A model generated the notes under the pieces. That model had not been told where the DNA came from, did not search any database, and saw only the letters and a program-made list of their open reading frames with translations. 64,000 nt of DNA, from contig NZ_JAATEN010000002.1 of the NCBI RefSeq assembly GCF_012034935.1, positions 1-64,000 of the forward strand. Direction: 5' to 3'. The position numbers were made by a program, and so were the translations under genes. Positions 44,304 to 53,409 of the stretch are shown piece by piece. Source of the stretch: Streptomyces zingiberis. GTDB taxonomy: Bacteria > Actinomycetota > Actinomycetes > Streptomycetales > Streptomycetaceae. Position 1 is the first letter of the stretch. The number at the start of each line of letters is the position of its first letter.

Positions 44304-44376
44304 GGGGCTATAGCTCAGTTGGTAGAGCGCCTGCATGGCATGCAGGAGGTCAGGAGTTCAATTCTCCTTAGCTCCA
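44304..44376 (+). tRNA. tRNA-Ala (anticodon GGC)
   Basis: 73 nt. Acceptor GGGGCTA pairs with TAGCTCC (one G-U), D arm GCTC/GAGC, anticodon stem CCTGC/GCAGG around loop ATGGCAT, T arm AGGAG/CTCCT with TTCAATT loop. CCA is not encoded. A possible -10 TAAGCT lies at 44247-44252. A terminator hairpin follows. An identical copy lies at 46505-46577. Confidence 0.97.
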
Positions 44377-44383
44377 CACCTTC

Positions 44384-44953: not shown

Positions 44954-46334
44954 CCGGGGCCGGCGTCCGGGCGCCGGGCGACCGTGCCGGCGGCGTGGGG
45001 CGCGCGGCGGCCCGGCGCCGCAGGGCGCGCAGCGCGACGACCGCCGCGAGGCAGAGGAACGCCACGGCCAGCAGCGGATAGCCCGCCGAGAGCAGCATCT
45101 GCCCGGCGTTCTGGTCCAGTTCGGACCGTTCACCCGGGGCATGCGGCACCCACCACAGGGCGTACGAGCAGAAGACCAGCCCCGTGCCGGCGGTGGCCAC
45201 CCACCATGCCGGACGGCCCGGCCGGCGCAGCGCCTCGGAGCCCAGCAGGACCAGCAGCGGCACGCACCACACCCAGTGGTGCGACCAGGAGACCGGGCTG
45301 ACCAGCAGAGCCGTCATGGCGCAGGCCACCGCCGCCCAGGCGTCGAGCCCTGCGAGGAACGCGGCCGTCGTGACGGCCAGCCCGGCCACCACCGCGAGCG
45401 TGGCGGCACCCGCCCACCACAGGCCCGGTTCGGGGGTGTGCAGCAGCCGCGCGGCGACCCCGCGCAGGGACTGGTTGGCGGTCTGCTCGACCAGCCCGGG
45501 ACGGTCCGGGTTGACCACCACCTCGGTCCAGAAACGGAGGGAGTCGCGCGGCAGTACCACCCCGGCCAGCGCGACGGTCGCGAAAAACGTGGCGCACGCC
45601 GTCGCCGACCGGCGCAGCAGCGGGTTCCACAGGGCCGTGGTACCGGGCCGGGGGGCGCCGTGCCGGCGCCGGGCCCGCACCTCCCCGGCTGCCTTCGCCA
45701 CGCCCGCCACGGCCAGCGCCACGGCGAACAGCGCGGGGGTCAGCTTCAGCCCCGCCGCGATCCCCGTGCCGATCCCCGCCCACCGGTGACCGGCGTCCCC
45801 TGGGCGGCGGGACAGGTCCCACAGCACCAGTACGGCCAGCAGCAGATTGATCTGCCCGTAGCGCAGCGTCGTCCACACGGGCTCGCACCAGACCGCCGCG
45901 GCCGCCACCCCGAACGTCACCGCCGCCCTCGGCCACCGGCGTGGGCGGCCCACCGTGCGCAGCGCCAGGTGGACCAGGGCGACCAGCAGCGCCAGGTTCC
46001 CCGCCGTCGCCAGGGTCCTCATCTCGCCCACCGGGAACAGCGTCAGCGGCATGAACAGCAGAGCGGCGAACGGAGGATAGGTGTTGGGCAGCTGGGCCTC
46101 GGTGAAGGGCGCCCCGTACAGATCCTGCCCGGCGCGGGCCGCCCAGCCCTCGGCCCGGTAGACCATCAGGTCGACCATCGACACCCCGATGAGGCGCTGC
46201 GCCACCCAGAAGAGGGCGAAGGACGCAAAGCAGCAGCCGAGGGCGGTGAGCACGGGGCGGTCGCGGACCAGCGCGCGGGCCACCGCGGAGAAGGGAAGGG
46301 CGAGGGCCTTCTCGGCCGACTCCGTAGCGGACAC
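44943..46334 (-). CDS. GT87 family polyprenyl-phosphate-mannose-dependent mannosyltransferase-like membrane protein
   Basis: 463 residues from GTG at 46332-46334 (VSATESAEKA), preceded by GGAG; the longer frame above lacks a ribosome site. About ten membrane helices. The DUF2029/GT87 signature is present: MVDLMVYRAEGWAARAGQDLYG, YPPFAALLFMP, RYGQINLLL, KLTPALF and VSPVSWSHHWVW. Enzymes of this family transfer alpha-mannose from polyprenyl-phosphate-mannose on the outer face of the membrane. A possible -10 TATTAG lies at 46405-46400. It converges on and overlaps the zinc-ribbon gene by 11 nt. Confidence 0.9.
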   Translation of the reverse strand: MSATESAEKALALPFSAVARALVRDRPVLTALGCCFASFALFWVAQRLIGVSMVDLMVYRAEGWAARAGQDLYGAPFTEAQLPNTYPPFAALLFMPLTLFPVGEMRTLATAGNLALLVALVHLALRTVGRPRRWPRAAVTFGVAAAAVWCEPVWTTLRYGQINLLLAVLVLWDLSRRPGDAGHRWAGIGTGIAAGLKLTPALFAVALAVAGVAKAAGEVRARRRHGAPRPGTTALWNPLLRRSATACATFFATVALAGVVLPRDSLRFWTEVVVNPDRPGLVEQTANQSLRGVAARLLHTPEPGLWWAGAATLAVVAGLAVTTAAFLAGLDAWAAVACAMTALLVSPVSWSHHWVWCVPLLVLLGSEALRRPGRPAWWVATAGTGLVFCSYALWWVPHAPGERSELDQNAGQMLLSAGYPLLAVAFLCLAAVVALRALRRRAAARPTPPARSPGARTPAPVRP

Positions 46335-46504: not shown

Positions 46505-46577
46505 GGGGCTATAGCTCAGTTGGTAGAGCGCCTGCATGGCATGCAGGAGGTCAGGAGTTCAATTCTCCTTAGCTCCA
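46505..46577 (+). tRNA. tRNA-Ala (anticodon GGC), second copy
   Basis: 73 nt, identical to the copy at 44304-44376, with the same GGC anticodon and no encoded CCA. A possible -10 TAATGT sits at 46464-46469. Flanking sequences of the two copies are unrelated. Confidence 0.97.
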
Positions 46578-46649
46578 CCTCGGAGGGTCCGTCGCGGACG
46601 GAAGGGCGTGAGTGCCCTCGCGGCAGGATTCCCGGTATCACCGAAGAAT

Positions 46650-50232: not shown

Positions 50233-50245
50233 TACCCTGAGCCCT
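50233..50245 (+). promoter_or_regulatory. -10 element TACCCT placed for a leaderless leader-peptide mRNA
   Basis: TACCCT (50233-50238) then 7 nt and ATG 50246 of the leader peptide. No -35 consensus is visible. Confidence 0.55.
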
Positions 50246-50284
50246 ATGCGTGCCGTACGCCTTCTGCTTAGCGGGCCGCGCTGA
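50246..50284 (+). CDS. leuS leader peptide (12 aa) with three consecutive Leu codons
   Basis: Reads MRAVRLLLSGPR then TGA. Codons 6-8 are CTT CTG CTT; CTT is rare in such a GC-rich genome, so the ribosome should stall there when charged tRNA-Leu is short. The ATG lies 7 nt after a -10 hexamer, i.e. probably leaderless. A terminator hairpin follows before leuS. I infer ribosome-mediated attenuation. Confidence 0.7.
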   Translation: MRAVRLLLSGPR

Positions 50285-50362
50285 TCAGTCCCGGCCACGG
50301 CGGTCCCGGAGAACCGGAAACGCCGGTCTCCCCGGATCCCCGGGCCGGAATCGGCGCGGCGT

Positions 50363-50387
50363 CCCCTCCTGTGTGAGGGGTCTTTCC
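50363..50387 (+). terminator. Attenuator terminator upstream of leuS
   Basis: CCCCTC (50363-50368) pairs with GAGGGG (50375-50380) around loop CTGTGT, followed directly by TCTTTCC. This is one of the very few hairpins in the window with a U-rich tail. A competing hairpin (50308-50317 with 50323-50331) lies between leader peptide and terminator. Confidence 0.65.
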
Positions 50388-50442
50388 ATTTCCGGACAGT
50401 TTCCGCGCAGGCGGCAGAGACGATCGATGGAGCTTTGACACG

Positions 50443-53409
50443 ATGAGCGACTCCCCCCCCGCCCCCGGTTCCGCCATGGCGCCGTACCGGTACGAGGCGG
50501 CTCTGGCGGCCGAGATCGAGGCACGCTGGCAGGACTTCTGGGAGGCCGAGGGCGTCTACGAGGCCCCCAACCCGACGGGCGACCTGGCGCCGCGCGGCGC
50601 GCACGCGCAGAACCCGGCTGACGCCGCGGACACGACGGACACGGCGGACACGGCGGACGCGGCCCCGGCGATCGCACGGCCCAAGAAGTACATCATGGAC
50701 ATGTTCCCCTACCCCTCGGGTGCGGGCCTGCACGTGGGCCACCCCCTGGGGTACATCGCCACCGATGTCTACGCCCGCTACCACCGAATGACGGGCCACA
50801 ACGTGCTGCACACGCTGGGGTTCGACGCCTTCGGCCTGCCCGCCGAGCAGTACGCCGTGCAGACCGGCACCCACCCCCGGGCCAGCACCGAGGCCAACAT
50901 CGAGAAGATGACGTCCCAGCTGCGCCGGCTGGGCCTGGGCCACGACAAGCGCCGGGCGTTCGCCACGATCGACCCGGACTACTACCGGTGGACGCAGTGG
51001 ATCTTCCTGCAGATCTTCAACTCCTGGTACGACCGGGAGGCGGACCGGGCCCGCCCGATCGCGACCCTGGTCGAGCAGTTCGAGAGCGGTGAGCGGGAGA
51101 CCCCGCGGGGGCGGCGGCCCTGGAGCGAGCTGGACGCGAAGGGCCGCGCCGACCTGCTGGGGGAGTACCGGCTGGCCTACGCCTCCGACGCGCCGGTCAA
51201 CTGGTGCCCCGGGCTGGGCACCGTGCTGGCCAACGAGGAGGTCACCGCCGAGGGCCGCTCCGAGCGGGGCAACTTCCCCGTCTTCAAGGCCAAGCTGCGC
51301 CAGTGGAACATGCGCATCACGGCCTACGCCGACCGGCTGCTCGACGACCTGGAGGCGCTGGACTGGCCGGAGGCCATCAAGCTGCAGCAGCGCAACTGGA
51401 TCGGCCGCAGCGAGGGAGCCCGGGTCGACTTCCCGGTGCGCACCGAGGCCGGCGCCGAGCGGGCCGTCACCGTCTTCACCACCCGCCAGGACACCCTGTT
51501 CGGGGCCACCTACATGGTGCTGGCGCCGGAACACGAGCTGGTCTCCGGCGCGGACGGCGTCGTCCCGGCGGCCTGGCCGGAGGGCACCCCCTCCTCCTGG
51601 ACCGGCGGGCACGCCACTCCGGCCGAGGCCGTCGCCGAGTACCGCAAGCGGGCCGCCGCCAAGTCGGACGTCGAGCGGCAGGCCGACGCCAAGGAGAAGA
51701 CCGGCGTCTTCACCGGGGCCTACGCGGTCAACCCGGTCAACGAGGAGCGCGTACCGGTCTTCGTCGCCGACTACGTGCTGATGGGATACGGCACCGGAGC
51801 CATCATGGCCGTTCCCGCCCACGACGCCCGGGACTTCGCCTTCGCCCGCGCCTACGGCCTGCCCGTGCGCTGCGTCGTCGAGCCGTCCGACGGCCGTTCC
51901 ACCGACCCGGACACCTGGGACGACGCCTTCGTCTCCCACGACGCGCGGATCATCAACTCCGCCGGGCCCGGCCTGTCGCTGGACGGGCTGACCGTCACGG
52001 AGGCCAAGGCCCGGGCCGCCGCGTGGCTGAGCGGGCGGGGCCTCGGCGAGGGCACCGTCAACTTCCGGCTGCGCGACTGGCTGTTCAGCCGCCAGCGCTA
52101 CTGGGGCGAGCCCTTCCCCGTCGTCTACGACGAGGACGGCATCGCCCATCCGCTGCCCGAGTCGATGCTGCCGCTGGAACTGCCGGAGGTGGAGGACTAC
52201 AGCCCGCGCACCTTCGACCCGGACGACGCCGACACCTCGCCGGAGACCCCGCTGTCCCGGAACGAGGACTGGGTGAACGTCACCCTGGACCTGGGCGACG
52301 GCCGTGGCCCCCGGAAGTACCGGCGCGAGACCAACACCATGCCCAACTGGGCCGGCTCCTGCTGGTACGAGCTGCGCTACCTGGACCCGCACAACGGCGA
52401 GCGGCTGGTCGGCCCGGAGAACGAGCGCTACTGGATGGGGCCCCGGGAAGGAATGCCCCACGGTGGGGTGGATCTGTACGTGGGTGGTGCCGAGCACGCC
52501 GTGCTGCACCTGCTGTACGCCCGCTTCTGGTCCAAGGTGCTGTACGACCTGGGGCACGTGTCGTCCGCCGAGCCCTTCCACAAGCTCTACAACCAGGGCA
52601 TGATCCAGGCCTTCGTCTACCGCGACAGCCGGGGCATCGCCGTGCCGGCGGCGGAGGTCGAGGAGCGCGACGGCGCCTACTGGTACCGGGGGGAGAAGGT
52701 CTCCCGGCTGCTGGGCAAGATGGGCAAGTCGCTGCGGAACGCCGTCACCCCCGACGAGATCTGCGCCGAATACGGCGCGGACACCCTCAGGCTCTACGAG
52801 ATGGCCATGGGACCCCTGGACGTCTCCAGGCCCTGGGACACCCGGGCGGTCGTGGGGCAGTACCGCCTGCTGCAGCGGCTGTGGCGGAACGTGGTCGACG
52901 AGGGCACCGGAGCGGTGACCGTCACCGACGGCGAACCCGACGAGGTGACCCTGCGCGTGCTGCACAAGGCCATCGACGGGGTCGCCCAGGACATGGCCGC
53001 ACTGCGCTTCAACACCGCCATCGCCAAGATCACCGAGGTGAACAACCACCTGACCAAGTCGGGTGGCCCCGTCCCGCGCGCGGTGGCCGAGCCGCTGGTG
53101 CTGCTGGTCGCGCCGCTGGCGCCGCACATCGCCGAGGAACTGTGGCACCGGCTGGGGCATGAGGGCTCCGTCGTCCACGCGGCGTTCCCCGTGGCCGACC
53201 CGGCGTACGTCCAGGACGAGACGGTGACCTGCGTGGTCCAGGTGAGGGGCAAGGTGAAGGCCCGGCTGGAGGTGGCCCCGTCGATCTCCGAGGACGAACT
53301 GGAGCAGCTGGCCCTGGCACAGGAGCCGGTGCGGACGGCGCTCGGCGACGGCGGCGTCCGCAAGGTCATCGTGCGGGCGCCGAAGCTGGTGAACATCGTC
53401 CCGGCGTGA
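50443..53409 (+). CDS. leuS: Leucine--tRNA ligase
   Basis: 988 residues, class I synthetase charging tRNA-Leu. HIGH motif is HVGH in [16 protein letters not shown], the KMSKS motif reads KMGKS ([11 protein letters not shown]), and the CP1 editing domain is present ([26 protein letters not shown]). Compared with E. coli LeuS the N-terminus has an extra Ala/Asp/Thr-rich insertion (residues ~55-80) before the HIGH motif. ATG 50443 has GGAG 11 nt upstream. Its transcription is probably controlled by the leader peptide and terminator just upstream. Confidence 0.97.

Follow-up and report, generated by a model that had tools for sequence, protein, structure and literature searches.

The window, that is, the whole stretch of 64,000 nucleotides analysed here (Streptomyces zingiberis, contig NZ_JAATEN010000002.1, positions 1 to 64,000), carries the leucyl-tRNA synthetase gene leuS on its forward strand, preceded by a short open reading frame and by several hairpins. 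An earlier note had read this region, from its letters alone, as a leucine-responsive attenuator; the coordinates it gave for the peptide ORF, the hairpins and the leuS start all check, and the 12-codon ORF 50246-50284 does contain the adjacent Leu codons CTT CTG CTT, at 50261-50269. The features of the region are as follows.

50233..50238, forward strand: -10 promoter box TACCCT, 7 nt upstream of the leader ATG
50246..50284, forward strand: leader peptide ORF of 12 codons, MRAVRLLLSGPR plus stop (TGA at 50284), recurring in relatives
50261..50269, forward strand: Leu codon run CTT CTG CTT, its last CTT (50267-50269) being the putative control codon, 5 nt before P1
50275..50285, forward strand: 5' arm of hairpin P1, GCCGCGCUGAU, comprising the last two leader codons and the stop (leader nt 30-40), placed by covariation
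50291..50296, forward strand: 5' arm of P2, an optional inner helix with 6/6 pairs changed on both sides, absent from short variants
50308..50331, forward strand: GC hairpin of the earlier note, by eye an insert in the P1/P2 loop, not seen in relatives
50343..50348, forward strand: 3' arm of P2, placed by alignment with relatives
50350..50360, forward strand: 3' arm of P1, AUCGGCGCGGC, 2 nt upstream of the terminator, placed by covariation
50363..50380, forward strand: terminator hairpin T, CCCCUC / CUGUGU / GAGGGG, with a covarying stem 50363-50368 / 50375-50380
50381..50391, forward strand: terminator tail UCUUUCCAUUU, modestly U-rich, weaker than in most relatives
50429..50432, forward strand: GGAG, the probable leuS Shine-Dalgarno sequence, judged from its spacing
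50443..53409, forward strand: leuS, leucyl-tRNA synthetase, with its ATG at 50443

The leader region has one match within its own genome. No Rfam family matched it up to an E-value of 1, the only matches nearby being a tRNA and two sub-threshold ones, and a T-box covariance model likewise found nothing up to E 1 between positions 45000 and 55000 of the window. A leaderless start of the peptide, as proposed earlier, is expected because the box TACCCT, of the TANNNT type, lies 7 nt before the ATG, and leuL2 of S. lividans is reported to be leaderless as well (PMC8079986).

Attenuation of leuS has been described before. Classical attenuators in front of this gene were predicted in S. avermitilis and S. 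coelicolor (Seliverstov et al. 2005, PMC1262725), and the 2021 reannotation of S. lividans TK24 places leuL2 upstream of leuS, with a leaderless peptide, MRAVRLLLSEPR, nearly identical to that of the window, followed by a hairpin and a stretch of uridines (PMC8079986). The leuS attenuator being thus already published, the window holds another member of the group. In these two sources the elements are described as classical attenuators and for Streptomyces only. No leuS attenuator outside Streptomyces emerged from our search of an open literature library, in which papers were judged mainly by their titles and the opening lines of their abstracts; Lopatovskaya 2010 may list more, and priority outside Streptomyces is uncertain. 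In the papers found, control of leuS in actinobacteria had until now been a matter of predictions in three Streptomyces. The gene is essential and its product, LeuRS, is a drug target. What is new here is the comparative anatomy of the element: P1 was placed, a textbook antiterminator was tested for and not found, and the range was extended to other orders and to a further class. The element is a known attenuator that had been correctly spotted, with one part misassigned, and its range, its strict geometry and the failure of the textbook antiterminator make it a variant worth experiment.

The recurrence of the element was followed in two ways. A search with leuS provided a first set of 80 loci among at least 592 matches listed, nearly all from Streptomyces and close genera, with one Jiangella and one Hamadaea. 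All 80 of these loci, among the 592 matches listed, show a leader with adjacent Leu codons in the leaderless layout together with terminator T, a recurrence far above what chance would give; neither the short ORF nor the terminator, whose lack of conservation had been named as grounds for giving up the proposal, is missing from these relatives. Most of the peptides in the same 80 loci (of 592 matches listed) contain MRAVRLLL; two loci, L069 and L081, lack the initial Leu of the run, and L081 has a differing peptide, MGRTFELLSEPC. An alignment of 31 loci and the window (32 rows) was the basis of a covariance model, which matched 22/396 genomes in a phylum-wide sample, including 12/12 listed of the window genus, 67/101 genomes (two thirds) sampled from one further order, 41/99 (two fifths) from a second, and 4/66 from another class, all four from one genus. 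Among the 77 matches fetched, 11 of them congeners of the window, 75 sit directly upstream of leuS; this neighbourhood count covers the fetched matches and leaves aside 37 of the first order and 15 of the second, mostly weaker. The 75 leuS-linked matches are spread over 18 families of the two orders, in addition to the window genus and the one genus of the other class. Two candidates were dropped as leuS leaders: L103 is a weak match for which leuS was looked for and not found, and L104 resembles a leuA leader.

Since the element (L094-L159) accompanies leuS genes of two kinds, sharing about 55-69% or about 40-45% identity with that of the window, leader and leuS may have travelled or been replaced independently. 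Fifteen genomes without a model match were also inspected and no leaderless Leu leader was seen before leuS, the pattern used having recovered 5/5 positive controls, which indicates that the element is widespread and not universal. A TANNNT box stands 6-7 nt before the start codon in 137/152 parsed leaders, a figure to be read with the knowledge that the search model behind 75 of the loci includes the -10 box columns and favours such loci. L032, which shows leader and terminator, is outside the 155-locus counts given below, and L105, L126 and L133 are outside the counts of parsed leaders.

The last codon of the Leu run is near-invariant. CTT lies 3-6 nt before P1 in 150/155 loci (5 nt in 137; 3, 4 or 6 nt in 13) and CTC takes its place in the remaining 5, while among 8444 Leu codons in the leuS genes of the same loci CTG makes up 93.9%, CTC 4.8% and CTT 0.24% (20 codons). 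In the window, leuS uses CTT, which the earlier note had called rare in this genome, for 0/78 Leu codons (72 CTG, 6 CTC). When simply the last in-frame Leu codon is taken, the leaders give CTT in 140, CTG in 6, CTC in 5 and TTA in 1 (n=152); among the seven CTG or TTA cases L129, L156 and L158 are frame misreads, and in L127, L128, L130 and L134 the CTT is in place and an extra CTG follows two codons later, inside or beside P1. By this parse P1 begins 5 nt past the last Leu codon in 134/152 leaders; the last parsed Leu codon is also followed by A in 128/152 (50267-50270 in the window). Both CUU and CUC are decoded by tRNA-Leu(GAG), and for this reason the leader appears to sense the charging of that single isoacceptor. 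When CTT occupies the A site, about 12 nt would separate the first base of the P site from the base of P1, which would place the latter where the helicase of the ribosome is located.

P1, in which 50275-50285 pairs with 50350-50360, is the second conserved structure of the region and adjoins T rather than overlapping it. In the P1 helix 9/11 pairs are changed on both sides, and in T 6/6, with 100% of cells paired. Over the 77 matches, 95.2% of cells are paired and 21/23 pairs are changed on both sides, a result reached by 0/500 shuffles and compared with 41-47% in slid versions; the alignment behind these values has 76 distinct rows, including the non-leuS L103 and L104, and was fitted to the structure, and the P1 pair next to the A of the stop codon fails in 26/76 rows. 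Because of this fitting, segments were also cut blind to pairing. The P1 segments then gave -19.75 kcal/mol, against -16.2 when swapped between species (54 loci outside the first set, sd 0.33), and those of T -16.6 against -14.3 kcal/mol (64 loci outside the first set, sd 0.22), with 0/200 swaps equal in either case. The P1 test leaves out L127, L128, L129, L130, L134, L156 and L158; an earlier swap test had used best-helix arms, a choice favouring P1 and T, and the blind cut repeats it free of that choice. When anchors were fixed in 152 leaders, P1 reached a paired fraction of 0.865, against 0.27-0.61 in slid positions, but its 18 pair types do not exceed those of the slid controls (13-21).

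P1 has at least 7 contiguous pairs in 149/155 loci (fewer than 7 in 6/155), and where the last residue of the peptide changes from R to H or C the other P1 arm compensates (L037, L081, L095). A TAG closes the peptide ahead of P1 in eight loci, yet P1 still forms, with 8-11 contiguous pairs in L102, L116, L153 and L155 and only 5-6 in L097, L146, L154 and L157. The distance from the 3' end of P1 to the T stem, outer pairs included, is 0-2 nt in 155/155 loci, gaps of 0-5 having been allowed. The terminator predicted earlier is thus real, conserved and covarying, although its tail, UCUUUCCAUUU, is poorer in U than the usual AUUUUUC of relatives. The alignment that the earlier note had proposed as a check bears out the Leu run and the covariation of T; the GC hairpin 50308-50331, in contrast, exists in the window and is not seen in relatives, and it is not supported as a working part, representing by eye an insert in the variable loop of this genome. 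Its reading as a trp-like 1:2 region was dropped. In RNAfold predictions for L007 and L020, P1 was extended by pairing of the T loop to leader nt 21-29; this extension was rejected by eye, because in several species a change of AGC to ACC or ATC breaks the pairing and nothing in T compensates.

A short ORF with cognate codons is found before its cognate gene, with a covarying intrinsic terminator between the two; these are two of the features that characterize ribosome-mediated attenuators. On this comparative evidence we hypothesize, with a probability of about three in four, that the element is a ribosome-mediated transcription attenuator of leuS which would sense the charging of the tRNA-Leu reading CUU and CUC. 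That it is a Leu-sensing attenuator with P1 as the decision element seems quite probable. The leader ORF contains the 5' arm of P1 or is closely followed by it, and the spacing between this arm and the control codon is fixed, a geometry that would fit a hairpin whose folding depends on the position of the ribosome. Since P1 should be able to form while a ribosome waits at CTT and would melt when it passes, P1 would have to stand for starvation and to oppose T.

P1 might instead act mainly as a pause hairpin that synchronises the polymerase with the ribosome, like the trp 1:2 hairpin, antitermination having some other cause. The motif TGYG, corresponding to the 3' half of the consensus at which polymerase pauses, is present in the T loop (50369-50375 in the window), about 12 nt after P1, in 130/152 leaders, as such a role would have it. 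However, TGYG is found in only 39/61 leaders outside the first set, and pausing alone leaves read-through unexplained, so that we regard this explanation as unlikely.

A trp-type attenuator in the strict sense, in which stalling of the ribosome lets a rival antiterminator hairpin capture one of the terminator arms, is the label given to the S. coelicolor and S. avermitilis elements in the text of Seliverstov et al. (PMC1262725), and our element shares with this type a leader peptide with cognate codons, an intrinsic terminator and, probably, a decision taken by the position of the ribosome. In the trp type, however, the antiterminator shares an arm with the terminator, whereas here P1 only abuts T, with no conserved overlap. 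Across 152 leaders, upstream stretches paired with the T arms no better than shuffled sequence did (median z +0.94 and +0.74), while in a comparable test P1, as positive control, gave a median z of -4.18, with 96% below -2. In folding calculations P1 and T coexist, and T has a probability of at least 0.92 in 11/12 leaders at every position of the ribosome edge, the twelfth, L063, giving 0.17 in the calculation without a ribosome and 1.0 otherwise. As the two hairpins coexist thermodynamically, RNA folding alone makes no switch.

A weak alternative, GCGCGG:CCUGUGC, between the 3' arm of P1 and the loop of T, can be drawn in Streptomyces, all six pairs being possible in 90/117 loci whose stem is CCCCTC and whose loop has 6 nt. 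It was tried as an antiterminator and rejected: the two segments do not co-evolve (-5.47 kcal/mol for real and -5.70 for swapped combinations, 64 loci), and the pairing would arise once the Leu codons had been translated, giving control of the wrong sign. As T has no conserved competitor, the textbook antiterminator is unsupported; what stands of the earlier proposal is the control of leuS through Leu codons, which is supported and had already been published, and what lacks support is the textbook layout with a competing antiterminator. In sum, a strict trp-type mechanism appears improbable. Pairing of the Leu run with the leuS Shine-Dalgarno sequence, in the style of the LEU element, was also looked for by eye, and weak pairs only, none of them firm, were seen.

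In the Leu-sensing attenuator that we favor, P1 would oppose T by other means. A steric clamp, a picture drawn from geometry and not from calculation, is quite possibly the answer, though we lean slightly against it. When leucyl-tRNA is plentiful, the ribosome would pass CTT, melt P1 and halt at the stop codon; the distance from there to T (median 44 nt) would usually be large enough to let the terminator fold and end transcription early. When it is scarce, the ribosome would stall with CTT in the A site and its leading edge at the base of P1, a position whose median distance from T along the RNA is 58 nt; P1 would form and bring the ribosome next to T. As P1 lies 0-2 nt from the T stem, a ribosome parked at its base would sit at the foot of T, and ribosome, P1 and polymerase together would leave no room for T to close, allowing read-through into leuS. 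In E. coli, a ribosome close behind the polymerase is reported to repress intrinsic terminators, an effect that disappears when over 27 nt separate the stop codon and the hairpin (PMC4824070), and transcription-translation coupling is reported to lower termination in vitro (PMC10135430). Among our loci, 115/148 have over 27 nt between the leader stop and T, a count that omits L129, L134, L156 and L158; this is the case in 86/91 of the first set (79 loci, the window and 11 congeners) versus 29/57 of the others, and for that reason the clamp is less convincing outside the first set. Changes of leader codons at ilvB and leuA in S. coelicolor, as told in the text of Seliverstov et al., had no effect or an effect inconsistent with classical attenuation (PMC1262725), which counts against the proposal.

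More tentatively still, the whole can be put together as an antiterminator-free attenuator, in which P1, forming ahead of the stalled ribosome, would tie it to T, and the ribosome, lying beside RNA polymerase across a looped-out leader, would block termination; the geometry, which runs rare CTT, 5 nt, P1, 0-2 nt, T and recurs across many families of actinobacteria as well as a single genus of another class, would then serve to sense one minor tRNA-Leu. Its invariants, namely a single rare codon, a fixed gap and a hairpin flush with the terminator, are sharp and testable.

The reports on E. coli terminators repressed by nearby ribosomes (PMC4824070, PMC10135430) could also be taken in favor of control with the opposite sign, or by growth rate, in which a ribosome at a stop codon near T would suppress termination and active translation would raise leuS. 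Short distances from stop to T do exist (33/148 at most 27 nt). Nevertheless, 86/91 loci of the first set lie beyond that limit, and it would be purposeless for the Leu run to end in a rare codon that hardly varies, making this sign of control very improbable. Finally, that the leader is kept for reasons of promoter or translation, with no leucine regulation of leuS, is hardly credible: the -10 box and the leaderless start are themselves conserved, but P1 and T covary, a terminator stands ahead of an essential gene and the CTT bias falls on one codon position.

The Leu-sensing attenuator proposed here can be compared with other leader systems. In pyrBI of E. coli a nearby ribosome blocks the terminator, as reported in PMC10135430 and as the clamp would have it here; pyrBI, however, senses UTP through polymerase pausing, whereas here the ribosome would be positioned by a fixed Leu codon and drawn near by a hairpin. 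Moreover, in the pyrBI type the leader ORF reaches the terminator, while the leaders studied here stop at least 16 nt before the T stem in parsed leaders, the minimum in the 148-locus count being 18. The leaderless poly-Cys attenuators that Canestrari reportedly described in mycobacteria in 2020 are also short-ORF systems of actinobacteria and concern another amino acid and other genes. The LEU element before leuA has a Leu-codon leader too, and the description in PMC1262725 gives it a possible pseudoknot and a base stem that pairs the Leu codons with the ribosome-binding site. A putative leuA leader of the window genome (L180, G000:C12:86628-86647), 36 kb away and outside the window, encodes MRFGLLLLSRRGEGL with the codons CTG CTT CTC CTT AGC; the CTT AGC end is common to it and the leuS leader.

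Some minor observations concern the surroundings of the element. Two tRNA-Ala genes, at 44304-44377 and 46505-46579, both with anticodon GGC, lie about 2 kb apart, and the N-terminal part of leuS contains a low-complexity stretch at 50620-50665. Just upstream of leuS, positions 50427-50438 read ATG GAG CTT TGA; ATGGAG precedes leuS in 75 of the 80 loci scored (79 and the window), with CTT next in 72 and then TGA or TAA in 53. This may be the ribosome-binding region only, or else a tiny ORF of three codons in which the rare CTT appears again.
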